This document shows, piece by piece, positions 1 through 21,660 of a stretch of DNA of 64,000 nucleotides. A program made the translations under genes and the position numbers. Every line of letters begins with the position of its first letter. The stretch's first letter is position 1. This DNA is from an uncultured Pseudomonadota bacterium. GTDB lineage: Bacteria; Pseudomonadota; Gammaproteobacteria; Burkholderiales; SG8-39. The notes below the pieces were generated by a model. It did no database searches. It was not told the DNA's origin and was given only the letters and a program-made list of their open reading frames with translations. The stretch spans positions 1-64,000 of the forward strand of contig CAIKRR010000057.1 in NCBI GenBank assembly GCA_903829815.1. The letters run 5' to 3'.

Positions 1-2109
1 ACGCCCACTGTCCTTGCCCCGGCAGCCAACGTGGCCGACATCGACCTGTCGGGCATCGGCAACTGGAACGGCGCAACGCTCACCCTGGCGCGCCACGGCG
101 GGGCCAATGCCGATGACCTCTTCAGCGGATCGGGCACGGTCGCGCTCAGTGGCAGCACCATCACCGTTGGTGGCACCCCCATCGGCACCTTCACCCAGAG
201 CGGTGGCACGCTCACCATCACCTTCAACGGCAACGCCACCCCGAGCCTGGTGACCACGCTCGCGCGGGGCCTTGCCTACGCCAACACCAACCTGGACCCG
301 CCTGCCTCGGTGCAGATCGACCTCGTCGTGAACGATGGCAACGCAGGCTCCTCGCTCGTACCCGGGGCGCAAGGGCTGGGCGGTCCGCTCGCCGCCAGCG
401 GTCAGGTGGCCGTCAACATCATCGCCATCGACAGCCCGCCCGCGAATGTCACGCCGAGCAGTGCCACGCTGATCGAAAACGCGCACTTCCCCTTCACCGC
501 CGCCGACTGCGTGTCCATCACCGACCCCGATGCCCGCACCGGCACCCTGAGCACCACCCTCTCGGTGGCTCACGGCACCCTCTCGCTGGGGGCCTTCAGC
601 GGTGGTGCCATCGCATCCGGTGATGGCACCGGCACCGTGGTGATCACCGGCACGCTCACGCAGATCAACAGCGCGATCGCCAACCTCACCTACCAGCCGG
701 TGCATGGCTATTACGGCCCTGACACCCTGCAAGTCGTCACCAATGACAACGGCAACACCGGACAGATGCCTGCCAGTGCCCCCGCAGGATCCACCTTCGG
801 CAATGGCGGCGCCTCGCTCGTCGCGAGCACGACCGTCCCGATCGACGTGGTGCCGATCAACACCGCGCCGAGCTTCAGCAATCTGGGCGGCAACGTGCCC
901 TTCACGCCCGGTGAGCGCCCGGCACCACTGAACCCGAACGCCCGGGTACAGGACCGCGAGATGGATGGCTTCAACGGCGGTGCCGGCAACTACGCCGGTG
1001 CCACGCTGTCGCTCTCTCGTGTCGGTGGGTCTGACCCCGGTGACGTCTTCGGCACCAGTGGAACGGTCACCATCACGGGGGGCAATGCGAGCGTGAACGG
1101 GGTGATCATCGCGAGCGTCACGCAGGTGAACGGACAGATTGGCTTCCACTTCAACGGCAACGCAAGCACCGCTCTGGTCAACACGCTGCTCGCTTCACTC
1201 ACCTACCAGAACGTGAGCGCCCGCCCACCGGCCACCGTCGACATCCTGTACCGGATCGATGATGGCAACACCGGTCCCCAGGGCGTGGGCGGAGCATTGA
1301 GCGGCACCGGTACGAGCACGGCCACCTATCGTCCCGGGTTCATTCCACCGATCGTGCTGCCGCTGCCCGTCCTGCCCCCGATCGGTCCCGTGCCCACCCC
1401 GGTACCGCCCCTGCCACCCCTCGGATCGCACCTGGCAGAAACCCCCGGATGGGGGCTGGGCGACTACGAACTGTCGATCCAGATCCGCTCGATCGATCTG
1501 GGCAACCGCGGGCTCTTCGGGCAGCGTGACGTACCCAAGCTCGAGTCGAGCCAGTTCGGCTGGCCGGCCTCGATCCAGCCCTCGCTGCCGGCAGGCGAGC
1601 CGCTACGGGTCGGGGCTCCGATCGGTGCCCGACAGTTTGCCACTGGCGCAGAATTCATCTTCGAGATTCCACGCGACAGCTTCCTGCGCAACAACCCCCG
1701 GAGCATCGTCAATCTGATGGCGATGACGCCCGACGGTCAGCCGCTGCCGGCCTGGGTGTCGTTTGATGACATCGCGGGCATCCTGGCCGGCCGTGCCCCG
1801 GCGGGCACCCGCTCGCTCCCGCTGCTCGTCATCGCCCGCGACACCGAGGGTAACGAAGCGCAGCAGACCTTCCAGCTGGTCTTTGCGGCCGACAACCGCA
1901 GCTCACTGCAGGGTCTGCCCCAGGCAGCAGGGTCTATCGTCGAACGTGACACCCGACCTGTCGCCCAGCGGGTCCCTGTCGCCCAGCGGGTCCCTGTCGC
2001 CAGCTTCGCCGAACAACTGCGCCTTGCGCGCGCCCCCCATCGCAACCTGCCAGAGCCGGGGCGCGCCACACCCCGCCCCCTTGTGATCGAACGAGAACCT
2101 GCCCGATGA
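1..2109 (+). CDS. C-terminal part of a large repeat-domain surface/adhesin-like protein (5' end outside window)
   Basis: The frame is open from base 1, so the true start lies upstream; 702 residues are visible. Two copies of a beta-rich repeat of about 95 residues (roughly residues 20-115 and 333-430) share the pattern GATL-L-R-GG, an F-G-SGTV core, FNGNA and a closing -DDGN-G or -NDGN-G. Between them lies a cadherin-like segment ending in YGPDTLQVVTNDNGNTG. A proline-rich linker follows (about residues 450-475), then a putative Ig-like domain with the hallmark LPAWVSFDDIAGILAGRAP. The tail is basic and lacks RTX glycine nonapeptides or a membrane anchor. The stop overlaps the start of the TolC-like gene (ATGA), and two HlyD adaptors follow, so I infer a secreted surface protein encoded with its exporter. 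The exact function is unknown. Confidence 0.75.
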   Translation, partial: TPTVLAPAANVADIDLSGIGNWNGATLTLARHGGANADDLFSGSGTVALSGSTITVGGTPIGTFTQSGGTLTITFNGNATPSLVTTLARGLAYANTNLDPPASVQIDLVVNDGNAGSSLVPGAQGLGGPLAASGQVAVNIIAIDSPPANVTPSSATLIENAHFPFTAADCVSITDPDARTGTLSTTLSVAHGTLSLGAFSGGAIASGDGTGTVVITGTLTQINSAIANLTYQPVHGYYGPDTLQVVTNDNGNTGQMPASAPAGSTFGNGGASLVASTTVPIDVVPINTAPSFSNLGGNVPFTPGERPAPLNPNARVQDREMDGFNGGAGNYAGATLSLSRVGGSDPGDVFGTSGTVTITGGNASVNGVIIASVTQVNGQIGFHFNGNASTALVNTLLASLTYQNVSARPPATVDILYRIDDGNTGPQGVGGALSGTGTSTATYRPGFIPPIVLPLPVLPPIGPVPTPVPPLPPLGSHLAETPGWGLGDYELSIQIRSIDLGNRGLFGQRDVPKLESSQFGWPASIQPSLPAGEPLRVGAPIGARQFATGAEFIFEIPRDSFLRNNPRSIVNLMAMTPDGQPLPAWVSFDDIAGILAGRAPAGTRSLPLLVIARDTEGNEAQQTFQLVFAADNRSSLQGLPQAAGSIVERDTRPVAQRVPVAQRVPVASFAEQLRLARAPHRNLPEPGRATPRPLVIEREPAR
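1960..2001 (+). repeat. In-frame 18-bp tandem repeat, 2.3 copies
   Basis: The 18-bp unit GTCGCCCAGCGGGTCCCT occurs at 1960-1977 and 1978-1995 and is followed by a 6-base partial copy. It encodes VAQRVP twice near the C terminus of the repeat-domain protein. Copy number could change without breaking the frame. Confidence 0.9.
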
Positions 2110-4016
2110 GTCTTCATTTGCCCCTTGATCGCCGAGCCGGGATCACCCATCCCGGGGGTCGGTTACGCCAATGGATGGGTGCACTGAGTTGTGGTGTCAT
2201 CCTGGCCGGCTGCGCCGTGCAACCGCAGCCGCTGGGCGAGGACGCTCACAGCGACGCCGGCCAGCGCGACCGCGAGCGGCTCGCAGCGGCGACCGAACCG
2301 CTCAACCGTCCAGTCACGCTGGCCGAAGCCACCGCACGTGCGATCCGCTTCAACATGGATTACCGCCAGCGCATGATGGAAGAAGGCGCAGCCGCGCGCC
2401 AGCTCGATGTGGCCAACTGGGACATGCTGCCCAAGTTCACCCTCCAGGCGGGCTACACCGCGCGCGACAACGACGCATTCAGCTACGGCGTCCAGCCCGA
2501 TGGCACAAAGACCGTGAGTCCATCCACCGCCATCGAGCGGCGACACTGGACTGACAGCGCCGTTTTCTCCTGGAATATTCTCGACTTCGGCCTCTCCTTC
2601 TATCGGTCCAGGCAGCTGGCCGATCAGGTGCTGATCGCCGAAGAGCGACGACGCAAGGCCCTGCAGAACCTGGTGCAGGACGTGCGCTTCGCCTGGTGGA
2701 GAGCGGAGAGCGCAGAGCGTCTGTTGCCGCAGGTCGATGCCTTTTTGCGTGAAGTCGATCTGACCATCGCACGAGCGCGTCTGATCGAGAATCGCCGCCT
2801 GCTGCCGCCGATCCAGATCATCGGCTATCGTCGCGCGCTGCTCGACCTCGCGCAGCAGATCACACTGCGCCGCCAGGATCTGGCCGCAGCGCGCGTCGAA
2901 CTGGCGACCCTGATGAACATCGGGCCCGGCACCCCCTACACCATCGCCACGCTGCCCACCGAGCGACAGGTGCCCGACTTCACCGCCCATATCGATGCCC
3001 TGGAGAATCTGGCGCTCACCAACCGCCCGGAATTGCGCGAGGAGCGCTACCGCGCCCGCATCACCGACCTCGAGCACACCCGCACGCAATGGTCGACACT
3101 GGTGCCCGGACTGGGCGTCGATGCGGGCTACTACCACGACTCCAATCGCTTCCTCGTGAACAACTCGTGGGAACAGGCCGGCATCGCGGCCGCCTTCAAT
3201 CTGGTGAAGGTGTTTTCACTGCCGGCCATCGACCGCTCATTTGACGCTCAGCGGGCGGTGGACGAGGCACGCCGACTGGCGCTCTCCAGTGCCGTCATCA
3301 CGCAGACCCGGATCGCGGCCGTGCGATTCCAGTTGCTGAAGAACGAGTTCGAGGTCTGGGATGAAGCCTTGCGCGATGACGAGCAGATCATCCGGTACCT
3401 GAGTGCAGCCAGTCAGATCGGGCTTGAAACCGAGCTCGAGATCGTCCGGGCCAAGGCACGACGCATGGTGACCCTGATGAACCGCGATACCGTGCACGCC
3501 GGATTGCAGGCGGCCATGGGCCGTGTCGCCTACTCGGTTGGCGTAGACAGTCTGCCCGACCAACTCGATGACCGCAGCACCGAGGGCATTGCGCGGGCGC
3601 TGATTGAACGTGTTGCAAGCTTCGAGTCGGCACATTTCAAGACCTCGGAACCGGTGCTGCTGCGCCCGGTACGCATTGCCACGCCCGCGGGCCTGCCCGA
3701 GGCGATGGCAGCGCCCTTCACCACAGCCATGCAGCGGGCGTTGACCGTGGCGCGCATCCCCACTGCGGGCAATGAACCGGCCGCCACGATAGAGACACGC
3801 ATCGACATGGAGCCTTCCCGGGACCAGTCACGTCTGGTGAAGATGAAGGTGCGAGTGCTTGACGCCGAGGGCCGGTCGCTCCTCGATGCCGAGCAGCGCA
3901 GCATGCTCATCGAGCCGCTGGACAACCCGCAATGGTCTGCCCTGGGCGAAGGCGTCGCCTACCGGGTCATCGTTCCGATCCTGCGCCACCTCGGGCAGCC
4001 GGCCATCGTGCGATGA
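2106..4016 (+). CDS. TolC-family outer-membrane efflux lipoprotein with an extra C-terminal domain
   Basis: The 636-residue product has a hydrophobic signal ending in the lipobox LAGC (Cys about residue 36), so it is probably lipid-anchored in the outer membrane. The central part has the long alpha-helical layout of TolC/OprM proteins (for example RALLDLAQQITLRRQDLAAARVELATL, seen in short stretches), expected to trimerise into an outer-membrane duct. TolC homologues are usually 420-490 residues; here about 125 residues after position 510 form an additional mixed alpha/beta region that I do not recognise. The start overlaps the upstream stop (ATGA) and two adaptor genes follow, so it most likely forms the exit duct for the upstream surface protein. 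Confidence 0.85.
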   Translation: MSLHLPLDRRAGITHPGGRLRQWMGALSCGVILAGCAVQPQPLGEDAHSDAGQRDRERLAAATEPLNRPVTLAEATARAIRFNMDYRQRMMEEGAAARQLDVANWDMLPKFTLQAGYTARDNDAFSYGVQPDGTKTVSPSTAIERRHWTDSAVFSWNILDFGLSFYRSRQLADQVLIAEERRRKALQNLVQDVRFAWWRAESAERLLPQVDAFLREVDLTIARARLIENRRLLPPIQIIGYRRALLDLAQQITLRRQDLAAARVELATLMNIGPGTPYTIATLPTERQVPDFTAHIDALENLALTNRPELREERYRARITDLEHTRTQWSTLVPGLGVDAGYYHDSNRFLVNNSWEQAGIAAAFNLVKVFSLPAIDRSFDAQRAVDEARRLALSSAVITQTRIAAVRFQLLKNEFEVWDEALRDDEQIIRYLSAASQIGLETELEIVRAKARRMVTLMNRDTVHAGLQAAMGRVAYSVGVDSLPDQLDDRSTEGIARALIERVASFESAHFKTSEPVLLRPVRIATPAGLPEAMAAPFTTAMQRALTVARIPTAGNEPAATIETRIDMEPSRDQSRLVKMKVRVLDAEGRSLLDAEQRSMLIEPLDNPQWSALGEGVAYRVIVPILRHLGQPAIVR

Positions 4017-4051
4017 GCCCATTCCGAAACTTCCGACCAGGTGATACCACC

Positions 4052-4777
4052 ATGTACCCCTTCATGCGAGCCGCCCTCTTCGTGGCGGCCATTGCCGCGC
4101 TTTCGCCCGCTCACGCCGAGGACACCTACCCGGCCATCATTGCTTCGGCCGAGGAGGCAACACTCTCGGCACAGATGCTTGGCCGCATCCAGACCTTGAA
4201 CGCCACGCTCGGCGCCACGTTCGCCAAGGGCGACGTCCTGGTGGCATTCGACTGCGCCGAGCGGGAAGCCCAGTTGAGCGCCACGCGCGCCGATGCGATG
4301 GGAGCGCGCGAGACGCATCTGGCCAAGCTGCGCCTGGAAGGGCTCGGGGCTGCCGGAGAACTCGAGGTCACCACCGCCGCTGCTGCGGCGGCCAAGGCCC
4401 AGGCCCAGGTTGCGCTGATCGAATCGCAGATGAGCTACTGCACGATCCGGGCCCCCTTTCCAGGACGGGTGGCACGCCTGCGTGCCAAGGCTGCCGAGAC
4501 GGTGAACCCCGGCCAGGCACTCATCGAGATCGTCAACCCCGAGGTCCTCAAGGCAACGATCAACGCACCGGCCAGTGCCCTGCGCTCGCTGCAGGTGGGC
4601 ACCCGCGTAGGGCTGCGCGCTCCCTCGGGCCGACGGTACGCGGCGGAAGTCTCGCGCATCAACGCCCGGATCGACGGCGTGAGCCAGACCATCGAAGTCG
4701 AAGCGAGCGTGGCAAGCGCACCCGGACTGGTACCAGGCATTGTCCTTGAAGCGCGTTTTGCGCCCGCACAGCGCTGA
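4052..4777 (+). CDS. HlyD/RND-type periplasmic adaptor protein (membrane-fusion family), short form
   Basis: The 241-residue product has a cleavable signal peptide (MYPFMRAALFVAAIAALSPAHA). A split biotinyl-lipoyl domain flanks a short helical hairpin: the first half contains GRIQTLNATLGATFAKGDVLVAFD and the second CTIRAPFPGRVARL, followed by a beta-barrel. I chose ATG 4052 because AGGTGA lies just upstream and the signal peptide begins there; an in-frame ATG at 4013, overlapping the TolC stop, would give a longer N terminus without a good signal. There is no inner-membrane anchor, so the protein is probably periplasmic, linking an inner-membrane partner (not in this window) to the TolC-like duct. 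Confidence 0.85.
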   Translation: MYPFMRAALFVAAIAALSPAHAEDTYPAIIASAEEATLSAQMLGRIQTLNATLGATFAKGDVLVAFDCAEREAQLSATRADAMGARETHLAKLRLEGLGAAGELEVTTAAAAAAKAQAQVALIESQMSYCTIRAPFPGRVARLRAKAAETVNPGQALIEIVNPEVLKATINAPASALRSLQVGTRVGLRAPSGRRYAAEVSRINARIDGVSQTIEVEASVASAPGLVPGIVLEARFAPAQR

Positions 4778-4904: not shown

Positions 4905-6257
4905 ATGAGCCAGACGACGCAGGCATCGAGCGAGGCCGAGTGGGTCGGTCGGCTGCTCGCCTACCAGGCGAGCCTCACGAGTTGCCGCTCGCGGCGCGAG
5001 CTGCAGTTTGCCATCGTCAACGAGGGGGTCGGTCTGCTGGGCCGTCATCAGGCCTGGCTGGGTGAACCGGGAACGCTCGGGCGCCTTCAGCCCATTGCTG
5101 TCTCGGGGCTGGCCGACCTCGACCGCAATACCCCCTTTTCATTCTGGTTTTCGCACCTGTGCCAATGGGCTCTCGATCAGGACCTGCCGGTCGTGGTTGC
5201 TTCGCCCGATCGTCTGAGCAGCGAACTCGCACGCGAGGGCAGCGAATGGATGCCGGCTCACGCCCTGGGCTGCCGGCTGCTCGGTCCGCGTGAGGAACCG
5301 CTGGGCATCCTCTGGCTGTGCCGCAACGAACCCTTCTCCACCGAAGAGTGCGAAGTCGCTGCCTGGATTGCCCGGCAGGCCGGGTTTGCGCTCTGGGGCT
5401 GGCGCTCGGAACGATCGCGCCTTGCCCGAGTCGTGCAACGGGTCTGGGGACGGCGCCTGGCCTGGCTCACCCTTGCCGTCGTGTTCCTGCTGGGCTGTAT
5501 CCCGGTGCGCCTGAGCGTACTGGCGCCGGGCGAGGTGACGCCCCTCCAGCCAACGCCCGTCACCGCGCCCACCGATGGGGTCGTGCAGCGTGTCTGGGTG
5601 ACGCCCAGTCAGCCGGTGAAGGCCGGTGACCTCCTGGTCACGTTCGATGACACGGTGATCCGCAATCGCCTGCAGGTCGCACGCAAGACCCTCGACATCG
5701 CCCGCGCCGAATCGCAACGCGCCGCGAGCAAGGCCTTCGCCGATGACCAGAGCAAGGCTGAACTCCAGATTCTCGATGCGCGCGCACGAGAAAAAGCCGC
5801 CGAAGTAGCCTACCTGGCGGAACTGCTCGAGCGCATGCGGATCACGGCACCGGTCGAAGGGGTCGCCGTCTTTGCCGACGCCTCGGAGTGGATCGGCAAG
5901 CCGGTGCAGACCGGCGAACGCATCATGCTGGTGTCAGACCCCGAGGAGGTCGAACTCACGCTCCACGTATCGGCTGACGATGCCATTCCTCTGGCCTCAG
6001 GCACACCGGTGCAGATGTACCTGAACGTGGCACCCCTGTCCTCCCTTGCAGCCACCGTGCGCCAGACCAGCTACGAAGCGCTGCCTGTCGGGGAGGGCAA
6101 CACCGCCTATGTGCTCAAGGCCGCCTTTGACAACACCCAGGCCCGCCCTCGCCTGGGCTTGAAGGGCACGGCGAAACTGTTTGCCGAACCGGTTCCGCTT
6201 GCCTACTACCTGCTGCGAAAACCGATCGCCTGGCTGCGTCGGGCCGCGGGCCTGTAG
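4905..6257 (+). CDS. HlyD-type adaptor with an N-terminal GAF-like cytoplasmic domain
   Basis: The 450-residue product has three parts. Residues 1-165 resemble a GAF-like sensory fold (starting with a helix, then GLLGRHQAWLGEP and LGILWLCRNEPFS). One transmembrane helix lies at about 187-207 (LAWLTLAVVFLLGCIPVRLSV). A HlyD-type lipoyl/barrel adaptor follows (GVVQRVWVTPSQPVKAGDLLVTFDD and MRITAPVEGVAVF). The C terminus, PLAYYLLRKPIAWLRR, is typical of adaptors that I recall beside M50-type membrane peptidases; no such peptidase is in this window, though it could lie upstream. The topology puts the GAF-like part in the cytoplasm and the adaptor in the periplasm. It is the fourth gene of the secretion module and ends 10 bases before the convergent monooxygenase gene. 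Confidence 0.75.
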   Translation: MSQTTQASSEAEWVGRLLAYQASLTSCRSRRELQFAIVNEGVGLLGRHQAWLGEPGTLGRLQPIAVSGLADLDRNTPFSFWFSHLCQWALDQDLPVVVASPDRLSSELAREGSEWMPAHALGCRLLGPREEPLGILWLCRNEPFSTEECEVAAWIARQAGFALWGWRSERSRLARVVQRVWGRRLAWLTLAVVFLLGCIPVRLSVLAPGEVTPLQPTPVTAPTDGVVQRVWVTPSQPVKAGDLLVTFDDTVIRNRLQVARKTLDIARAESQRAASKAFADDQSKAELQILDARAREKAAEVAYLAELLERMRITAPVEGVAVFADASEWIGKPVQTGERIMLVSDPEEVELTLHVSADDAIPLASGTPVQMYLNVAPLSSLAATVRQTSYEALPVGEGNTAYVLKAAFDNTQARPRLGLKGTAKLFAEPVPLAYYLLRKPIAWLRRAAGL

Positions 6258-6267
6258 CACGCACCTG

Positions 6268-7452
6268 TCAGACCAGTGGCACCGTGAGCGGGTCGTAGTT
6301 GTAGAGCCACTCGGCGCGTTCTTTCGCGATATTGCGCTCGTGAAACGCGCGCCGCATCTGCTCGGCATCGACCATATGGTAGAGCCCGCCATGCTCGGTC
6401 GACTCGGTGACGACACGCGAGGTACGGTCAACGCGATTGCGCTGATAGATCTCGAGCGCTTCGGTGACTGAACCCGCGCCCTCCACCGCACGGGCGAGCA
6501 CCGCGCCATCCTCGATCGCGATGCAGGCGCCTTGCGCAAGGAAGGGCAGGGTCGGATGGGCGGCATCGCCCAGCAGCGTGGCGCGCGCCGTACTCCAGTT
6601 GCGCACCGGCTTGCGGTTGTTGAGCGCCCAGCGATAGCACTCGTTCTTGTTGGCAGCATCGAGGATGGCCTGGATCTTCGGATGCCAGCCGACGTAATTG
6701 GCCTTCAGTTCCTCCCACGGTCTGCTCTGGGTCCACGACTCCTCTTCCCAGGCGCTGCGCTCGGGGCACCCGACCCAGTTGAGCAGTTCGCCACCGCGCA
6801 ACCAGTAGATGACACAGTGGTTCTTCGGCCCGCACCAGACCTGACCGACGATGTCCATGATGTCGGAGGGCAACTGGCTGCGCGGCACGGTGAGTCGCCA
6901 GGCCACATAGCCGGTGTAATTGACCGGCGTCTCGCCGACGATCTGGCTGCGTATGGCAGACCGGATGCCGTCAGCACCGATCAGCAGGTCACCCGACACG
7001 GTCGACCCGTCGGCGAGGGTCGCCGTGACCTTGTCGGCCGTCTCGCTGTAGCCTGTGACACGCGCACCGAGGGTGATGCAGTTGGGGTCCAGGGCGAGCA
7101 CGCAGTCGACCAGGATGCGGTGCAGGTCGGCACGGTGGATATGGTAGTAGGGTGCCCCGTGCTGGCGCTCATGCGCACCGGCAAACGGGATGGCGTGCAT
7201 GAGTTCGCCGGTGTCATAGCGCCTGAACTCATAGCTTTGCGGCTTTACCGACACCCGCTCGAGCGCCTCGCGCAGCCCGAGGTCGTACAACACCTTGGCC
7301 GAATTGGCGCTCTGCTGGACGCCGGCACCAATCTCGCCCAACTGCGACGCCTGTTCGAAAATGCGCACCTTGCAACCCTTGCGCATCAGACTCGCCGCTG
7401 CCGCCAGGCCACCCAGGCCTGCCCCGGCAATGATCACATCCACTTTATTCAT
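6268..7452 (-). CDS. FAD-dependent aromatic-ring monooxygenase (salicylate / 3-hydroxybenzoate hydroxylase type)
   Basis: The 394-residue product carries the three class A flavoprotein hydroxylase signatures. The FAD dinucleotide fold is VIIAGAGLGGLAAAASL near the N terminus, the DG motif is LLIGADGIRSAIR (about 158-170), and the GD motif is ATLLGDAAHPTLPFLAQGA (about 290). The family uses NAD(P)H and O2 to hydroxylate phenolic acids such as salicylate or 3-hydroxybenzoate. The substrate cannot be read from sequence. The gene stands alone on the minus strand between the secretion module and the nitrogen unit, with GAGGG just before its ATG. Confidence 0.88.
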   Translation of the reverse strand: MNKVDVIIAGAGLGGLAAAASLMRKGCKVRIFEQASQLGEIGAGVQQSANSAKVLYDLGLREALERVSVKPQSYEFRRYDTGELMHAIPFAGAHERQHGAPYYHIHRADLHRILVDCVLALDPNCITLGARVTGYSETADKVTATLADGSTVSGDLLIGADGIRSAIRSQIVGETPVNYTGYVAWRLTVPRSQLPSDIMDIVGQVWCGPKNHCVIYWLRGGELLNWVGCPERSAWEEESWTQSRPWEELKANYVGWHPKIQAILDAANKNECYRWALNNRKPVRNWSTARATLLGDAAHPTLPFLAQGACIAIEDGAVLARAVEGAGSVTEALEIYQRNRVDRTSRVVTESTEHGGLYHMVDAEQMRRAFHERNIAKERAEWLYNYDPLTVPLV

Positions 7453-7858: not shown

Positions 7859-9129
<1,271 letters not shown>

Positions 9130-9149
9130 TTCCCAGAAGGAGTACCAAG

Positions 9150-10634
9150 ATGAAACGTCTGATTGCTTTGCTTGCCCTGGTGGGCGCGGCGATGTTCATA
9201 TCGCCCGTGCTGACACCAGCCCACGCCGAGGACAAGGCCCCAGTGGCCGAAGCCAAGGCTGACGCCGCAGCACCCGCCGCAGCGGCCGAGGCAGCCACGC
9301 CCGCCCCGAAGTACGAGAAAGGCGATGTCGCCTGGATGCTGATTTCAACCGCGCTCGTTCTGCTGATGGCCGTACCCGCCCTCGCGCTCTTCTACGGCGG
9401 CCTCGTCCGCTCGAAGAACATGCTCTCGGTATTGATGCAGGTGTTCGTCACCTTCTCGATGATCACGGTACTGTGGTTCGTCTACGGCTACAGTCTGGCG
9501 TTCACCGAGGGTAATGCGTACTTCGGCGGCTTCGACCGGCTGTTCTTCAACGGCATGTTCGATCCGGCCAGTGGCGTCTTCGCACCGGCAGCCACGTTCA
9601 GCAAGGGGGTTGTCATTCCCGAGATGCTGTTCGCCGCCTTCCAGGCCACCTTTGCCGCCATCACCTGCTGCCTGATCGTGGGTGCCTTTGCCGAGCGCAT
9701 GAAGTTCTCGGCGGTGCTGATCTTCATGGTCATCTGGTTCACGTTCGCCTACACCCCGATCGCGCACATGGTGTGGTTCTGGATGGGCCCGGATGCCTAT
9801 ACCGACCCGAAACTGGTCGATGCACTGAACGCCAAGGCCGGCATGGTCTGGCAGTGGGGTGCGCTCGACTTCGCCGGTGGCACCGTGGTGCACATCAACG
9901 CCGGTGTCGCCGGTCTGGTGGGTGCCTACATGCTCCGCAAGCGTCTGGGCTATGGCAAGGAAGCCATGTCGCCGCACAATCTCACCATGACGATGATCGG
10001 TGCAGCGCTGCTCTGGTTCGGCTGGTTCGGATTCAACGCCGGCTCGGCGCTCGAAGCCGGTACGGCGGCCACCCTCGCCTTCATGAACACCTTCCTCGCC
10101 ACCGCTGCTGCCGTCATGGCCTGGACCTTCGCCGAGTGGGCCATCAAGGGCAAGCCCTCGATGCTGGGTGCTGCCTCGGGTGCCGTGGCCGGCCTTGTGG
10201 CCATCACCCCAGCGGCCGGCAACGTCGGCCTGATGGGCGGCCTGGTCATCGGCATCCTTGCCGGCCTGGTATGCCTGTGGGGTGTCACCGGCCTGAAGAA
10301 GTTGCTCGGTGCCGATGACGCGCTCGACGTGTTCGGCGTGCACGGTTTGGGCGGCATCCTTGGTGCGCTGCTCACCGGCGTGTTCAACTCACCTGACCTG
10401 GGTGGCCCTGGCTTCGTGACCGACTGGGTCACCGCGAAGACCGGCTTCACCTCGATCGGCGAACAACTGCTGGTGCAGGCCAAGGCGGTCGGTGTTACCG
10501 TGGTGTGGAGCGGCGTCGTCGCCTGGATCGCCTACAAGATCGCTGATCTGCTGGTCGGCCTGCGAGTCACCGAAGAAGAGGAACGTGAGGGTCTCGACGT
10601 GAATTCCCACGGCGAGAGTGCCTATCACATGTAA
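9150..10634 (+). CDS. amtB: Ammonium transporter AmtB
   Basis: The 494-residue polytopic membrane protein has a cleavable signal (to about residue 27, AHA) and an Ala/Glu/Lys-rich periplasmic linker before the Amt core. Diagnostic motifs are ALFYGGLVRSKNMLS, DFAGGTVVHINAGVAG with the first pore His, and FGVHGLGGILGALLTGVF with the second pore His. It conducts ammonium across the inner membrane and is gated by GlnK, encoded immediately upstream. AGGAG precedes ATG 9150. The unit ends at the terminator at 10655. Confidence 0.96.
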   Translation: MKRLIALLALVGAAMFISPVLTPAHAEDKAPVAEAKADAAAPAAAAEAATPAPKYEKGDVAWMLISTALVLLMAVPALALFYGGLVRSKNMLSVLMQVFVTFSMITVLWFVYGYSLAFTEGNAYFGGFDRLFFNGMFDPASGVFAPAATFSKGVVIPEMLFAAFQATFAAITCCLIVGAFAERMKFSAVLIFMVIWFTFAYTPIAHMVWFWMGPDAYTDPKLVDALNAKAGMVWQWGALDFAGGTVVHINAGVAGLVGAYMLRKRLGYGKEAMSPHNLTMTMIGAALLWFGWFGFNAGSALEAGTAATLAFMNTFLATAAAVMAWTFAEWAIKGKPSMLGAASGAVAGLVAITPAAGNVGLMGGLVIGILAGLVCLWGVTGLKKLLGADDALDVFGVHGLGGILGALLTGVFNSPDLGGPGFVTDWVTAKTGFTSIGEQLLVQAKAVGVTVVWSGVVAWIAYKIADLLVGLRVTEEEEREGLDVNSHGESAYHM

Positions 10635-10726: not shown

Positions 10727-11695
10727 TCAGCGAATCAGCCGCGCAATCGCCGCAAGCCGTGAGCGCTGGTCTTCCACGCCAGCGGCAAAGTCGCGCGGGC
10801 CCCGAACGTCGACCACCTGCCCGGTGGCCGCGAGGCGCGCACCCACAGCCGGGTCGGCACCAACCTGACGCACGGCATCGGCAATCTGCTCACGCAATTC
10901 GATCGGCATCCCGCGCGGACCGAAGAGCCCGACGAGGCTCTCGAGTTCGAGCGAGGGAAACCCGGCCTGGGCAGCGGTCGGTACCTCGGGCGCGCTGGGC
11001 GCTCGCTGCCGGCTCGTGACGGCCAACACACGGACACGCCCGGCCTGCATGTGGGGTTGCGCAACCGCCAGCGAGGTGATGGCAAGCGAGAGCCTGCCCT
11101 CGGCCATGTCATTGGGGGCCTGGAGGATGTCGCGATAAGGCACTCGCACCACATCGAGGCCGCTTGAACGCAGAAAGCCTGCCAGGAGGAATTCAGCCCC
11201 GCCCGCAGTGGCTGCCGCATTGAGTTGCCCGGGCTGTGCGCGGGCCAGTGCGACAAAGTCGGCTACGCTGCCGACCTTCAGCGATGTCGATGTGGACACA
11301 GCCAGAAAGAGCGTCGTGAAGCTGGCAATCGGCAGGAGATCGCGCTCGGCGTCGTAGGGCACCTTGTCCTGCACATACGGGTGGACCGCAAAGGTGCCCA
11401 CCGGCACGAAGAGCAGTACGTGATCATTGGCAGCACCGGTGAACGCATTGATCGCCACCAGGCCATCGCCGCCCGGGCGATTTTCGATGACCACCGACTT
11501 GCCCCATCGGGCTGAAAGCCGATCGGCAAAGAGGCGGGCCGTGATATCGGTGCCACTGGCCGGTGCAAAGGGCACGATGAAGCGTACGGTGCGGGCGGGC
11601 CAGGTCGATGGTTCGGCGGCCGCGGTTGCGCCGCTACCCCACACACTGGCCACGGCGATCGCGATCGCACTGAGCCCCATGGAGAATCGTGTCAT
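10727..11695 (-). CDS. Bug/TctC-family periplasmic solute-binding protein (1)
   Basis: The 322-residue product has a signal peptide (MTRFSMGLSAIAIAVASVWGSGATA) and then the Bug-family opening WPARTVRFIVPFAPASGTDITAR and VVIENRPGGDGLVAINAF. Typical internal motifs such as VPYRDILQAPNDMAEGRL follow. Proteins of this family bind carboxylates or aromatic acids, classically for tripartite tricarboxylate transporters (TctABC), but no TctA or TctB is present. I chose the ATG at 11695 because AGGAGG lies 5 bases upstream. It lies 11 bases downstream of a second Bug gene on the same strand, and the two probably form an operon. Confidence 0.9.
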   Translation of the reverse strand: MTRFSMGLSAIAIAVASVWGSGATAAAEPSTWPARTVRFIVPFAPASGTDITARLFADRLSARWGKSVVIENRPGGDGLVAINAFTGAANDHVLLFVPVGTFAVHPYVQDKVPYDAERDLLPIASFTTLFLAVSTSTSLKVGSVADFVALARAQPGQLNAAATAGGAEFLLAGFLRSSGLDVVRVPYRDILQAPNDMAEGRLSLAITSLAVAQPHMQAGRVRVLAVTSRQRAPSAPEVPTAAQAGFPSLELESLVGLFGPRGMPIELREQIADAVRQVGADPAVGARLAATGQVVDVRGPRDFAAGVEDQRSRLAAIARLIR

Positions 11696-11706
11696 CTTGC
11701 CTCCTG

Positions 11707-12720
11707 TCATTCGGCCCTCACACGGGCCGCGCGCACGATGCGGCTGAACCGCTCGGTATCGGCCTTCCAGGCGGCCGCATGCTCTTCGGGTGTACTGCCC
11801 ACCGGCTCGATGCCGAGCGCCGTGAACCGCTCGACGATGTCGGGCAACTTCACCACCTCGGCCATCGACTGCGAAATGCGCTGGATGATCTCGCGCGGCG
11901 TTCCTGCGGGCACCATATAGCCATTGGTGACCGCGTAATCGAATCCCGGTGCGCCCATCTCGGCCACAGTGGGCACGTTGGGCGCAAGCGCGGAGCGCCG
12001 CGCCTGATTTCCGGCAATCAGGCGCACGCGGCCGTCACGTGCGTAGCTCGCGAGCGAGGGATAGGCCGAAAACACCATCGCCACCTGCCCCGAGACCATC
12101 GCTGGCACCGACTGGCCGGTGCCCTTGTACGGCACATGGATGATCTGCAGGCCGAAGGCAAGATTGAGTGCCTCCATGCTCAGGTGATGCACCGTGCCGA
12201 TACCCGATGAGCCGTAACTGAGCTCTCCGGGCCTGGCGCGCGCCAGCGCAATGAGTTCCTGAAAGTTGGCAACCGGCACCGAACTGTTCACGGCGAGAAA
12301 GAGCGGCGAGCGCGCCACGATCGAAACCGCCTCGAAGTCGCGCTCGGTGTAGTTGAGTTTCGGGTAGGTGAACGGATTGACTGCAATCACCGACGCATCC
12401 GACAGATGCAGCGAGTAACCATCGGGGGCAGCCCTTGCGACAATGTCGGCAGCGGTAATGCCACCGGCCCCGGGGCGGTTGTCCATGATGACCTGCACGC
12501 CCCAGCGCTCGGCCAGTTTCTGCTGCACCAGGCGCCCTACCGTATCGGGCAAGCCACCCGCTGCAAAGCCCAGGTAAACATGCACCGGCTTGTCGGGCCA
12601 GCGCGCCACGGCCGCGATCGCGGTAGCGGGCTGCGCCGCCACCGGCATGACTGCAGCCGCCATCGCAAGAGCGGCCAACAACAGGCAAGAGCGTCGTGCG
12701 CCGTGCACAATGGCTTTCAT
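11707..12720 (-). CDS. Bug/TctC-family periplasmic solute-binding protein (2)
   Basis: The 337-residue product has a signal peptide (MKAIVHGARRSCLLLAALAMAAAVMPVAAQ) and the family signature ARWPDKPVHVYLGFAAGGLPDTVGR, VIMDNRPGAGGITAADIVA and VPYKGTGQSVPAMVSGQ. ATG 12720 is preceded by AAAGGAGAT. It is the first gene of a two-gene minus-strand unit of tandem Bug proteins that are clearly divergent from each other, so they may bind different ligands. The ligands are not predictable. Confidence 0.9.
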   Translation of the reverse strand: MKAIVHGARRSCLLLAALAMAAAVMPVAAQPATAIAAVARWPDKPVHVYLGFAAGGLPDTVGRLVQQKLAERWGVQVIMDNRPGAGGITAADIVARAAPDGYSLHLSDASVIAVNPFTYPKLNYTERDFEAVSIVARSPLFLAVNSSVPVANFQELIALARARPGELSYGSSGIGTVHHLSMEALNLAFGLQIIHVPYKGTGQSVPAMVSGQVAMVFSAYPSLASYARDGRVRLIAGNQARRSALAPNVPTVAEMGAPGFDYAVTNGYMVPAGTPREIIQRISQSMAEVVKLPDIVERFTALGIEPVGSTPEEHAAAWKADTERFSRIVRAARVRAE

Positions 12721-12813
12721 CGATGATCTCCTTTGGCTTGAGCAGGGGCCTGTCCGCCCCCTCAAAAAGCCACGGCTCTCTCACTGGCCGAAACCGCGAA
12801 GCGATGCAGGGCT

Positions 12814-16336: not shown

Positions 16337-17344
16337 ATGTGCCCTCTCGCTCGCATTGCCCGACAGGCCTTGTTGTCCTCGAGAGCGCTCGCCGGCGCCG
16401 TCCTGGCGCTATCGTCTCTCATCCCTTGCAGCACGGCACAGGCAGAAGTCTGGCCATCGAAGCCGATCCGCTGGATCGTCCCTTATGCCCCCGGTGGTCC
16501 GACCGATCTGGCGAGCAGGGCGCTGGCCCAGCAACTGTCAATCGCCTTGCGCCAGCCCGTGTTGGTGGAAAACCGCGCCGGCGGCGGTGGCACCGTCGGC
16601 ATGAACGCGCTCGCCAAGGCGAACCCCGACGGCCATACCATCGGCACGGCCGACAACGCACTGGTGTTCACCGCGGCGCTCCACGCATCGCTCCCCTACA
16701 ACCCCGAGCGCGACCTCGTCCCCCTCGCCCAGTATGGCGTGGTGCCCTTCATCGTCGTGGTTCAAAGCGGGGTCGAAGCCCATCGTCTGCAAGACCTCAT
16801 TGCCCTTGCGCGGGCTCGACCGGGGCAACTCACCTACGGCACACCGGGCATCGGCAGTCCTCACCACCTGTACATGGAGTTGCTCAAGTCGCGCACTGGC
16901 ATCGACATCGTGCATGTGCCCTACAAGGGTGGGGCACCACTGGTGCAGGATCTGGCAGCCGGTCGGATCACGATGTCGACCAGCAACTGGGGGTTGGTGT
17001 CAGCGCTCATTCGGGCCGGCACGCTGCGGCCATTGGCCGTCACCGGGGCCCAGCGCATCGCGACCTTGCCCGACATACCCACCATCGCCGAGTCGGGGGT
17101 CAGTGACTTTGTCGCCTACGCCTGGCAGGGCGTGATCGCACCAGCGGGCGTTGCTCCCGAGGTGATGTCATCCCTCAGCCAGATCCTGCTGCAGGTGATC
17201 GACTCGCCCGAGACGCGACGCTCATTTGCCGATCTGGGCATGACACCCACGCCACTGGGTGCGGCCGAGTTTGCGCAGTTCATCCGCAATGAACGGATGC
17301 GCTGGCTGCCGCTCATCAAGTCTCTTGCGATCACCGCCGACTGA
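16337..17344 (+). CDS. Bug/TctC-family periplasmic solute-binding protein (3)
   Basis: The 335-residue product has a signal peptide (ending CSTAQA) and the motifs EVWPSKPIRWIVPYAPGGPTDLA, VLVENRAGGGGTVGMNALAKA, VHVPYKGGAPLVQDLAAGR and LPDIPTIAESG. ATG 16337 was chosen because the signal peptide begins there and GGAG lies 11 bases upstream; the frame is open further 5' only as an overlap with the preceding gene. It lies 88 bases after the HsaA-like monooxygenase on the same strand, so the two may share a transcript and the protein may bind that enzyme's substrate. Confidence 0.9.
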   Translation: MCPLARIARQALLSSRALAGAVLALSSLIPCSTAQAEVWPSKPIRWIVPYAPGGPTDLASRALAQQLSIALRQPVLVENRAGGGGTVGMNALAKANPDGHTIGTADNALVFTAALHASLPYNPERDLVPLAQYGVVPFIVVVQSGVEAHRLQDLIALARARPGQLTYGTPGIGSPHHLYMELLKSRTGIDIVHVPYKGGAPLVQDLAAGRITMSTSNWGLVSALIRAGTLRPLAVTGAQRIATLPDIPTIAESGVSDFVAYAWQGVIAPAGVAPEVMSSLSQILLQVIDSPETRRSFADLGMTPTPLGAAEFAQFIRNERMRWLPLIKSLAITAD

Positions 17345-17494
17345 TACCCCCGGCTGAGGCAGCACGCTCACATCCCCTGCTGAGACCCGGGGTCTTTCTC
17401 GACCGGGGTTGAGGCATGCCATGACCCGGCAACATGCGCGGACGCACAATGTCCTCTCCTGAAGCAACACCGAACCAGTCCAGGGGAAAACGCG

Positions 17495-18355
17495 ATGCTG
17501 CCATGGACGCTCGAGGATATCGATCTGACCGCCGTACCTGTGGCCAACGGCGAAGCCGAGGAAACACTGGCCTTGATCATCGCCGCTGCCTCACTGGTCG
17601 AATCGGCCTCGCACCTTTATACGAGCAATCTGACGCAATACTTCGCCACCGACCTCGAAGTGAGTCGCTGGTTGATCGAGCACTGGGAACCTGAAGAACT
17701 GCAGCACGGGCGGGCATTGCGTGCCTGGACCGAACGCGCCTGGCCTGATTTCGACTGGGAGGCGACGTTCAAGGATTTCTTCACCGAATATTCGATGCTG
17801 TGCCGACTCGACTCACTTGAGGCCACGCCAGCACTCGAGATGGTCGCGCGCTGCGTCGTCGAGACGGGCACCGCGGCACTTTATCGGAGTCTGTCCACGC
17901 TGGCCCATGAACCGGTGCTGCGCCAGTTGACAAGCCTGATCCACGCCGACGAAGTGCGTCACTACAAGTACTTCTATCGCTTCTTCAGGCGCTACCAGGG
18001 GCTCGAACATCTCAGCCGCTGGCGCATCTCTCGGGTGCTCTTCGAGCGCTCGCGAGAGATCAGGCGCGATGATTCAGGCTGTGCGATACGGCACATCGTG
18101 CGGGCACGCGGAACCGGCAAGAGCAGCACGTCAAGCCAGGTGAACAACTGGACGCAGGCCATCCACCGCCAGGTACGACAGGGCTGTCCCTACGACATGG
18201 CAGCCCGCATGTTTCTTGCACCACTCGATCTTCCCCCGGGCGTCAGGCTCTGGGTAAGCGGAGGCCTCGCCATCGGCGCTCGGGTGGCCATGCAGGGGCT
18301 GCCATGGCGATCGCACCGAGCCTGGGCAGACGAGCGGCCGCAACCGCTCGGGTGA
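17495..18355 (+). CDS. Ferritin-like diiron-carboxylate protein of unknown function
   Basis: The 286-residue product has a four-helix core with a full diiron ligand set: Glu36; Glu68 with His71 (EELQH); Glu123; and Glu153 with His156 (DEVRH). This is the ligand pattern of fatty-acyl desaturase, ferritin and monooxygenase diiron proteins. Residues after about 165 are basic and include a Ser/Thr-rich GTGKSSTSSQ stretch, then a hydrophobic C-terminal segment (RLWVSGGLAIGARVAM). I cannot name a function; an oxidase or desaturase-like activity, or iron handling, is possible. AGGGGA precedes ATG 17495. It is flanked by a Bug protein and a luciferase-like oxidoreductase on the same strand. Confidence 0.7.
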   Translation: MLPWTLEDIDLTAVPVANGEAEETLALIIAAASLVESASHLYTSNLTQYFATDLEVSRWLIEHWEPEELQHGRALRAWTERAWPDFDWEATFKDFFTEYSMLCRLDSLEATPALEMVARCVVETGTAALYRSLSTLAHEPVLRQLTSLIHADEVRHYKYFYRFFRRYQGLEHLSRWRISRVLFERSREIRRDDSGCAIRHIVRARGTGKSSTSSQVNNWTQAIHRQVRQGCPYDMAARMFLAPLDLPPGVRLWVSGGLAIGARVAMQGLPWRSHRAWADERPQPLG

Positions 18356-18453
18356 ACACCCGCCTGAGCGCCCGAGAACCGGACGGCCATCATCATCCGG
18401 GCGGGCTGAACGGGTAACATGGCAGCCTGATGGGCCCTCAGGAGGAGACTTGC

Positions 18454-19494
18454 ATGACCGCTGCCCGCGCCCCGCTTCGTTACTCGATCTTTTCGGTCAA
18501 CGATCACCACCCTGATCTGTCACGCACGATCCCGCAGCTTTATGCTCAAGTGATGCGCCACTGCGAAATGGCAGAAGCTCAGGGCTACGACACGTTTTTC
18601 TGCGCCGAGCATCACTTTCATGCCTACGGGGTCGTGCCAGACCCGGCGGTCATGCTCTCCGCACTCGCCCAGCGCACCGAGCGTATCCGGCTCGGAACCG
18701 CCATCTGCGTGCTCACCTTCCACGACCCGCGCCAGATCGCTGAAACCTACTCGATGATCGACATGATGAGTGGCGGCAGGCTCGTGTTCGGTGTGGGCTC
18801 GGGCTACCTCAAGCACGAATTCGTCGGCTATGACAGCAACCCGGCCGAGAAGCGCGACCGCTTCAACGAAAATCTCGATATCGTCAAGCGCCTGATGGCT
18901 GGTGAGACCCTCAGCTACCAGGGAAAATTCTCGCAGAGCGAACAGGTTGCGATCAACGTTCGTCCGCACGAAAACCGGGTACCACCCATCCACGTCGCCG
19001 TGCTGGCGCGTGACGCGATGGAACATGTGGGGCGTCAGGGCAACCGCATATTCACCGTGCCCTATGCCTCGTGCAAGGACTTCGAGGACATCGGCACGAT
19101 GCTCACCGATTACCGACGCGGCCGCAATACAGCAGGCCTCCCGGCCGACGACGATGACCACGTCGTGACCCTGCACACCTATGTGGCCCGTACCGACGAG
19201 GAGGCCCGCGCTCACTGCAAGGGCGCCTACGAGCGTTATGTCGAGACACGCCTTTATGCCTCGCGCCATACCTACGAAGACATCATCCGCAACGGCATAT
19301 GCCTCTTCGGTTCGGTCGAGACCGTGACCCGCAAGGTCTGCCAGCTCTACGAGATGGGCGTGCGCCACGTAGCCACGCTGCACAACTTCGGCGGCCTCCA
19401 GGCACGGTTGGTCGAACGTTCAATGACCCTCTTTGCCAATGAGGTGATGCCTGCGGTGGCAGCCGAAGTCGGCAACGAGGCACTGGCGGCCTGA
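18454..19494 (+). CDS. LLM-class flavin-dependent oxidoreductase (bacterial luciferase-like) (1)
   Basis: The 346-residue product has a TIM-barrel layout typical of luciferase-like F420 or FMN monooxygenases: CEMAEAQGYDTFFCAEHHF, LSALAQRTERIRLGTAICVLTFHDPRQIAETYSMIDMMSGGRLVFGVGSGYL, and a C-terminal substrate region. ATG 18454 has AGGAGGAGA upstream. The family oxidises diverse compounds (alkanesulfonates, aldehydes, N-heterocycles) using reduced flavin from a partner reductase, which is not encoded here. The substrate is unknown. Confidence 0.88.
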   Translation: MTAARAPLRYSIFSVNDHHPDLSRTIPQLYAQVMRHCEMAEAQGYDTFFCAEHHFHAYGVVPDPAVMLSALAQRTERIRLGTAICVLTFHDPRQIAETYSMIDMMSGGRLVFGVGSGYLKHEFVGYDSNPAEKRDRFNENLDIVKRLMAGETLSYQGKFSQSEQVAINVRPHENRVPPIHVAVLARDAMEHVGRQGNRIFTVPYASCKDFEDIGTMLTDYRRGRNTAGLPADDDDHVVTLHTYVARTDEEARAHCKGAYERYVETRLYASRHTYEDIIRNGICLFGSVETVTRKVCQLYEMGVRHVATLHNFGGLQARLVERSMTLFANEVMPAVAAEVGNEALAA

Positions 19495-19515
19495 TTCACT
19501 GAGGGCCTGATTCAC
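19488..19515 (+). repeat. Short direct repeat at the 3' end of the luciferase-like gene
   Basis: GGCCTGATTCAC occurs at 19488-19499 and again at 19504-19515; the first copy contains the stop codon. A related GGCCTGA follows at about 19520. The surrounding 253-base gap to the next gene shows no gene. Confidence 0.6.
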
Positions 19516-19747
19516 CGGCGGCCTGAACTGCAGGCGACCTGGACTGCGGGCGAATTGCGCCGCTCGCAGGCGTAGCCGTGAGTCGCTCGCTCCCCCGGGC
19601 CGGGGGTCATGAAAATACGCCGAGGCGCGAGGCTAAAGCCTTGCAGGTCACGTGTCGATTTCCCTACAGGGCCGCGAGATGCGCGCATCACCGATACGCG
19701 TCGTCCTCGTGCTTGAATGAACCATCCGACCCACAGGGACGATCTGC

Positions 19748-21660
<1,913 letters not shown>

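Follow-up and report, generated by a model that had tools for sequence, protein, structure and literature searches.

Why should a HlyD-type periplasmic adaptor carry a large domain on the cytoplasmic side of the membrane, and what would such an adaptor help to export? Both questions are raised by GAF-HlyD, a 450-aa protein encoded in the window (the whole 64,000-nucleotide stretch of DNA analyzed here). A preliminary description had proposed a GAF-like N-terminal part joined by one membrane helix to a periplasmic lipoyl/barrel adaptor, and each of these elements was borne out. Pfam detected HlyD_3 (E = 1.6e-13) and HlyD_D23 (E = 1.5e-9) in the protein, both above cut-off, and Foldseek matched the adaptor part to MacA (3fpp, E = 5.7e-16); by these matches the lipoyl/barrel-sandwich, hairpin, and beta-barrel of an HlyD/MFP periplasmic adaptor are present, with the hairpin modeled as helices 250-276 and 281-310. 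A hydropathy scan revealed a single clear hydrophobic stretch, whose best 19-mer begins at residue 188, and in the AlphaFold2 model an unbroken helix (residues 146-198) runs from the GAF domain to the membrane. Together these results confirm that a single chain combines a GAF domain with a HlyD/MacA-like adaptor, the two being joined by one membrane helix. Since there is one membrane helix and the adaptor lies outside, the GAF domain should face the cytoplasm.

By sequence alone, the GAF assignment is marginal. The Pfam GAF model (PF01590) scored 22.9 bits, just above its cut-off of 22.4, over residues 84-163; two of the 23 family members matched PF01590 and two matched GAF_2 at E ≤ 1; and a phmmer search of solved chains with residues 1-170 returned no GAF domain (best E, 0.56). 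Structure comparison was needed because that search found none. The AlphaFold2 model, built on 23 sequences, had a mean pLDDT of 85.1 (81 to 91 in ten-residue blocks across residues 11-160). VIA-align, applied to Foldseek's best 1000 chains for this model, superposed residues 8-171 on the solved GAF domain 3ci6 with a Z score of 16.7 and an rmsd of 2.7 Å over 150 residues, and other GAF chains matched the same residues with Z scores of 15 to 16. The proposal had been staked beforehand on a GAF fold in the N-terminal region, and structure prediction returned that fold. All seven longer homologs scanned exceeded the Pfam GAF cut-off (up to 56.6 bits); among short homologs, L043 had a match below cut-off, while L041 and L044 had none at E ≤ 1. 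The longer proteins (L079-L086, 553 to 664 aa) have an extra N-terminal region ahead of their well-scoring GAF domain.

Scanning the genome collection with a pattern yielded 22 relatives of GAF-HlyD from 81 candidate stretches, and the gene is therefore not a chance open reading frame; with the conserved neighbors, these relatives rule out an annotation artifact at this position as well. By name, nineteen of the relatives belong to betaproteobacterial groups, and three are designated no more narrowly than proteobacteria. All 22 lie near a gene encoding a second fusion, M50-HlyD. This gene directly follows GAF-HlyD in 19 loci; in the remaining three, members of the window's own branch, it shares the contig but is located upstream. 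Within the relatives' stretches, many of which are cut, a TolC homolog was present in 9 of 22 and a separate HlyD2 homolog in 11 of 22. The supposition that the fusion is a rarity did not hold, as it recurs in these relatives and has been in print since 2015. Kamneva, Poudel, and Ward describe a locus of GAF-HlyD, Peptidase_M50-HlyD, and a secondary SecA_DEAD protein, with a further HlyD protein and sometimes an OEP; no ABC transporter was found, a regulatory and sensory function was proposed for the GAF domain, and the broader role of the gene set was called "completely unknown" (PMC4452313).

In 21 of the 22 relatives, conservation is lower in the GAF domain than in the adaptor. Across L010-L028 (19 of the 22), identity to the window protein is 17 to 28% in the GAF domain and 38 to 49% in the adaptor, and the order is reversed in the closest relative, L007 (GAF, 97%; adaptor, 90%). 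Of the GAF positions, 16 of 164 are kept in at least 21 of the 23 sequences; for the adaptor the figure is 61 of 251. All 23 sequences agree at eight GAF positions: in the model, L33, F35, and N39 sit in the second helix; S67, G68, P77, and W81 occupy the segment that leads from the second strand into the first turns of the third helix; and P117 is separate. The poor conservation in L010-L028 weighs against ready acceptance of the suggestion that the domain senses a ligand or the energy state. It may instead be a docking or dimerizing part that holds M50-HlyD (or SecA) to the adaptor ring. The lower conservation, the small number of kept positions, and the proximity of M50-HlyD in all 22 relatives argue for docking, but the eight invariant positions are explained equally well by a pocket or an interface, and we rate docking as a serious possibility, though less likely than not. 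Set directly against each other, ligand gating and docking appear to us to have similar odds.

The genes of the locus are divided between two contigs (Table 1). Contig C57 begins at window base 1, so the DNA upstream of the window is on another contig. On contig C40, about 1,670 N-terminal residues of the DUF4347 protein are encoded before the contig ends. Both this piece and the window's adhesin piece align to a single adhesin of 2,870 residues in the closest relative locus, L092, the former over residues 3-1671 (90%) and the latter over residues 2175-2870 (89%). In L092, M50-HlyD, adhesin, TolC, HlyD2, and GAF-HlyD are contiguous in this order. Because both pieces align to one L092 adhesin, they probably belong to one adhesin gene. 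The assembly gap probably lies inside this gene, with about 500 residues absent between C40 and C57, judged by L092. An M50-type peptidase had been sought upstream of the window, and M50-HlyD on C40 answers to it; in L092 it is upstream on the same contig. The open reading frame (ORF) containing HlyD2 (3932-4777) matched HlyD_3 (60.2 bits) and RND_mfp (104.3 bits, above the cut-off of 94.9) in Pfam, and counted from 4052 the protein begins MYPFMRAALFVAAIAALSPAHA. At gathering thresholds, Rfam had no match anywhere in the window. At window positions 8593-10634 lie adjoining GlnK-like and AmtB-like genes, named from a look at the sequence, and on the minus strand at 10727-12765 are two adjoining genes whose products resemble tripartite tricarboxylate (Bug/TctC) binding proteins.

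Table 1. Features of the GAF-HlyD locus, in window coordinates unless contig C40 is named
Feature	Coordinates	Strand	Basis or remark
Giant adhesin, C-terminal end, open from contig start	1..2109	+	Frame 1 open 1-2106; alignment to L092 adhesin
TolC-type outer-membrane factor, lipobox-like N-terminus	2106..4016	+	Pfam OEP 100.9 bits; LAGC by eye
HlyD2, second adaptor, soluble periplasmic type, signal-peptide-like N-terminus	4052..4777	+	Listed ORF 3932-4777, likely start 4052
GAF-HlyD adaptor	4905..6257	+	ATG ORF, 450 aa; Pfam, AlphaFold2 model, solved-structure comparison
GAF domain (predicted), residues 8-171	4926..5417	+	VIA-align Z 16.7 to 3ci6
Membrane helix, residues ~188-206	5466..5522	+	Most hydrophobic 19-mer; continuous helix 146-198 in model
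Periplasmic adaptor: lipoyl/barrel-sandwich, short helical hairpin (250-310), beta-barrel, membrane-proximal part	5502..6254	+	Pfam, model helices, Foldseek
ORF downstream of GAF-HlyD	6268-7452	opposite	ORF list
M50-HlyD gene of the window's genome	C40:5217-7562		Followed by N-terminal part of DUF4347 protein

The large proteins beside the module, often of the DUF4347 type, point to a candidate client. Fifteen distinct genes of this kind have in common an N-terminal tag resembling LExR..FDGA. A strict form of the pattern gave 11 matches, and in a set of 3,156 ORFs holding 10 of the 11, each of 20 shuffles gave 0. A relaxed form gave 16 matches, corresponding to the 15 distinct genes, among 5,065 ORFs, with 0 to 3 matches (mean, 0.75) in shuffles. 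Every match falls close to the beginning of a large ORF adjoining the module, and none occurs elsewhere; the tag is at ORF position 10-86, and at 228 in L015, where the start codon is uncertain. The N-terminus of a recognized large neighbor was readable in 16 cases, which are not a blind sample because resemblance to the window's adhesin partly guided the recognition; 15 fit the relaxed pattern, and the exception, L082, reads VEPRLLFSA, a variant outside both patterns. In most other loci the neighbor's N-terminus lies beyond the stretch, and the tag was checkable only inside. No such large neighbor was recognized in L019, L083, or L084, and there was no tag match around a second M50-HlyD gene (L032).

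We ran Pfam and NCBIfam on tagged N-termini from 10 of the 15 distinct genes. Seven have DUF4347 after the tag; the others have no domain (L014), a bacterial Ig-like domain (L020), or a cadherin-like domain (L090). Because the tag is kept in these three, it is a more general feature than DUF4347. The tagged L090 protein has just 836 aa, which counts against reading the clients as giant adhesins. The LEPR-XLL model (NCBIfam NF012209) matches 6 of the 10 scanned N-termini, one of them above cut-off. L080 scores 26.8 against a cut-off of 17; matches below cut-off were obtained for the window adhesin, L011, L016, L018, L089, and L092, and none for L012, L014, L020, or L090. A paper on Vibrio mentions a protein of ~8000 aa with a LEPR-XLL domain (PMC10868602). 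The tag and this domain differ in wording, in that the window's relatives mostly read FDGA whereas L080 reads LLSAD.

We considered the adhesin as a Sec client and rejected it on the N-termini examined. In 11 adhesin N-termini, some with uncertain start codons, the top hydrophobic stretch in a hydropathy scan (used rather than a signal-peptide predictor) scored 0.89 to 2.08, below the starts of the two controls, HlyD2 (2.43) and TolC (2.29); L090 (2.08) came nearest. Two further observations concern genes near the tagged ORFs or the module. In L016 (1363-2319) and L012 (2067-3038), a gene of ~320 aa with a signal-peptide-like start lies directly ahead of the tagged large gene. L079 contains a large ORF (16873-19899, minus strand) with GGLGDD-like repeats, RTX-like by eye; cut at the stretch end, it shares its strand with the module and is located upstream of GAF-HlyD.

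M50, or site-2, proteases are marked by the motifs HExxH and NxxPxxxxDG. HExxH and NxxPFMRFDG-type motifs are intact in all 16 aligned M50 proteins (alignment A2, comprising 15 of the 19 from L010-L028, with L015, L017, L021, and L022 left out, plus that of the window's genome). The N-domain of M50-HlyD was modeled from residues 4-112 of L018 with 15 sequences (pLDDT, 86). Against solved structures, the model best resembled lasso-peptide B1 proteins with leader (6jx3, Z score of 10.7 and 2.8 Å over 82 residues; 5v1u, Z score of 9.8), followed by PqqD (5sxy, 8.8) and a sactipeptide synthase (7.5). Its three strands and three helices match those of solved RiPP leader recognition elements (RREs), and the first nine Foldseek rows were lasso and sactipeptide chains (E = 8e-3 to 8e-2). 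Structure comparison was needed to see this fold because a sequence profile of the N-domain found no RRE among solved chains; Pfam PqqD likewise had no match in three M50 proteins. The daptide HExxH protease model NF041824 gave 140 to 156 bits in three M50 proteins, below its cut-off of 300. We predict that the N-terminal domain of M50-HlyD has the RiPP leader-binding (RRE/PqqD-like) fold.

Co-occurrence was computed over 274 genomes, an even sample of the class that includes the window's genome. GAF-HlyD was scored from A1 matches at E ≤ 1e-15 (24 of the 173 genomes with any match), which may miss the GAF part, as in G103 and G072; M50-HlyD was scored at E ≤ 1e-30 (40 of 98 genomes) and DUF4347 over its cut-off (30 of 31 genomes). 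M50-HlyD is present in 23 of the 24 GAF-HlyD genomes, against an expected 3.5. Both M50-HlyD and DUF4347 are found in 23 of the 274 genomes, against an expected 4.4 (p = 6e-17, kinship ignored); in 10 of them, reading by hand placed the pair on a single contig, no more than ~6 kb apart. Seven of the 30 DUF4347 genomes are without the module, and 17 of the 40 M50-HlyD genomes are without DUF4347, both of which count against reading the module as an export machine for these proteins.

We lean toward the reading that GAF-HlyD is one of three adaptors in a TolC-linked export machine for tagged, very large, repeat-built surface adhesins. In its M50 partner, a HlyD adaptor would share one chain with an intramembrane zinc protease and an RRE/PqqD-like domain that binds leaders. 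This partner would bind the LExR..FDGA tag near the adhesin N-terminus and cut the adhesin behind or within the tag, and the cut adhesin would be handed to a conduit made up of HlyD2, GAF-HlyD, the adaptor part of M50-HlyD, and TolC. GAF-HlyD would serve as the inner-membrane-anchored adaptor, its GAF domain joined to the membrane helix by one continuous helix, and from the cytoplasm that domain would gate or dock the machine in response to a cytoplasmic ligand or partner. Computation shows the predicted folds, the linkage of the genes, the common tag, and the co-occurrence; reading and cutting of the tag, the path through the inner membrane, and the part played by the GAF domain are inferred from these. 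If this is true, leader recognition of the kind used for peptide natural products has been borrowed for the export of very large surface proteins. A stronger version holds that this is a leader-guided secretion machine distinct from type I secretion (T1SS), with no ABC transporter and, in this branch, no SecA of its own, in which the RRE-protease-adaptor reads LExR..FDGA on giant adhesins and GAF-HlyD couples the channel to a cytoplasmic signal; we advance it tentatively and consider it on the doubtful side.

A different account would have an ordinary T1SS ABC transporter or the housekeeping SecA/SecYEG move the adhesin across the inner membrane, with GAF-HlyD and M50-HlyD just processing or tethering it. 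The window's genome (98% complete, 98 contigs) has one SecA_DEAD match, a 933-aa frame, and no secondary one. Among genomes with short-type GAF-HlyD (frames of 415 to 495 aa), a second SecA_DEAD was found in 0 of 9, where the sole match of G126 is partial, at a contig end. Among those with the long type (553 to 664 aa), it was found in 8 of 9, G209 being the one without; the shorter secondary SecA adjoins M50-HlyD in 7 of 9 and lies on another contig in G084. G193, of ambiguous type because its GAF-HlyD frame is interrupted, had no second SecA_DEAD, and 6 of the 21 genomes behind the relatives' loci (that of L023 left out) had one. The short version of GAF-HlyD is usually without a secondary SecA.

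Over the whole window genome, TIGR03375 detected two LssB-like ATPases (646 and 618 bits, short of the cut-off of 693), which favors a T1SS route, and there was no match in C57:1-6257 or C40:1-7562, that is, no T1SS-type ABC transporter in the cassette. One of the two, at C40:25490-27394 (L077), is ~18 kb from M50-HlyD with large ORFs adjoining and may be a second, ordinary secretion locus. Because the genome has two T1SS-type ATPases, one on C40 itself, it is possible that the module borrows such an ATPase. A T1SS-type ATPase at E ≤ 1e-100 is present in 11 of 19 module genomes, again in favor of that route, but the other 8 have none. In those eight, the HlyB and PrtD models find among scored candidates only frames of 580 to 684 aa, below cut-off, and the HlyB matches are without at least the first 123 model positions; in G126, neither model finds anything at E ≤ 1e-60. 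Five of the eight (G122, G165, G115, G156, and G126) are short-type and have neither a T1SS-type ATPase at E ≤ 1e-100 nor a second SecA_DEAD. We rejected a single ATPase as the motor for the whole family, as the T1SS ATPase and the secondary SecA are each missing in part. With these eight genomes against it, and with 11 adhesin N-termini whose signal-peptide-like stretches, if any, are weaker than those of both controls, we judge the T1SS or Sec route unlikely. Export of a small RiPP-like peptide, with the large neighbor unrelated, would suit the predicted RRE fold and the resemblance to the daptide HExxH protease (156 bits at most, below cut-off), but the tag is common to otherwise different large proteins beside the module in 15 genes, and we regard this account as very improbable.

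Neither the GAF-HlyD fusion nor its locus is new. What the present analysis adds to that locus, on computational support, is a candidate client with its tag, a candidate reader of that tag, and the version with short GAF-HlyD and no secondary SecA. The terms adhesin, surface protein, cadherin, DUF4347, and PqqD are all absent from the main text of PMC4452313. Keyword searches of the open-access literature found neither the tag on large neighbors, nor the RRE-like N-domain of the M50 protein, nor the short GAF-HlyD without SecA, a weak negative because one such search, on the fusion and its M50 partner, missed PMC4452313, which writes Peptidase_M50. Set against the 2015 locus, the present one likewise joins GAF-HlyD with M50-HlyD (on two contigs in the window's genome), whereas the window's genome has no secondary SecA, its GAF-HlyD is short, and its cassette includes a giant tagged adhesin. 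With a candidate client, tag, and tag reader, the role of the 2015 gene set becomes testable (PMC4452313).

Among other known systems, the N-domain of the M50 partner resembles, in predicted fold, the RiPP leader recognition elements PqqD and lasso B1, and its M50 core resembles the daptide HExxH protease. Unlike in RiPP systems, the RRE of M50-HlyD is fused to HlyD, and the proposed client is a very large protein rather than a small peptide. The adaptor part of GAF-HlyD is like the MacA/MexA/HlyD periplasmic adaptors, from which the protein differs in its large cytoplasmic GAF domain ahead of the membrane helix. Type I secretion comprises HlyB, HlyD, and TolC and includes the giant adhesins of the Lap type. 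The module has TolC, HlyD-type adaptors, and a giant adhesin in common with it; in contrast to type I secretion, it has no T1SS-type ABC transporter in the cassette of the window's genome, its candidate clients have a shared tag at the N-terminus, and it has in addition an M50 protease and a GAF domain.
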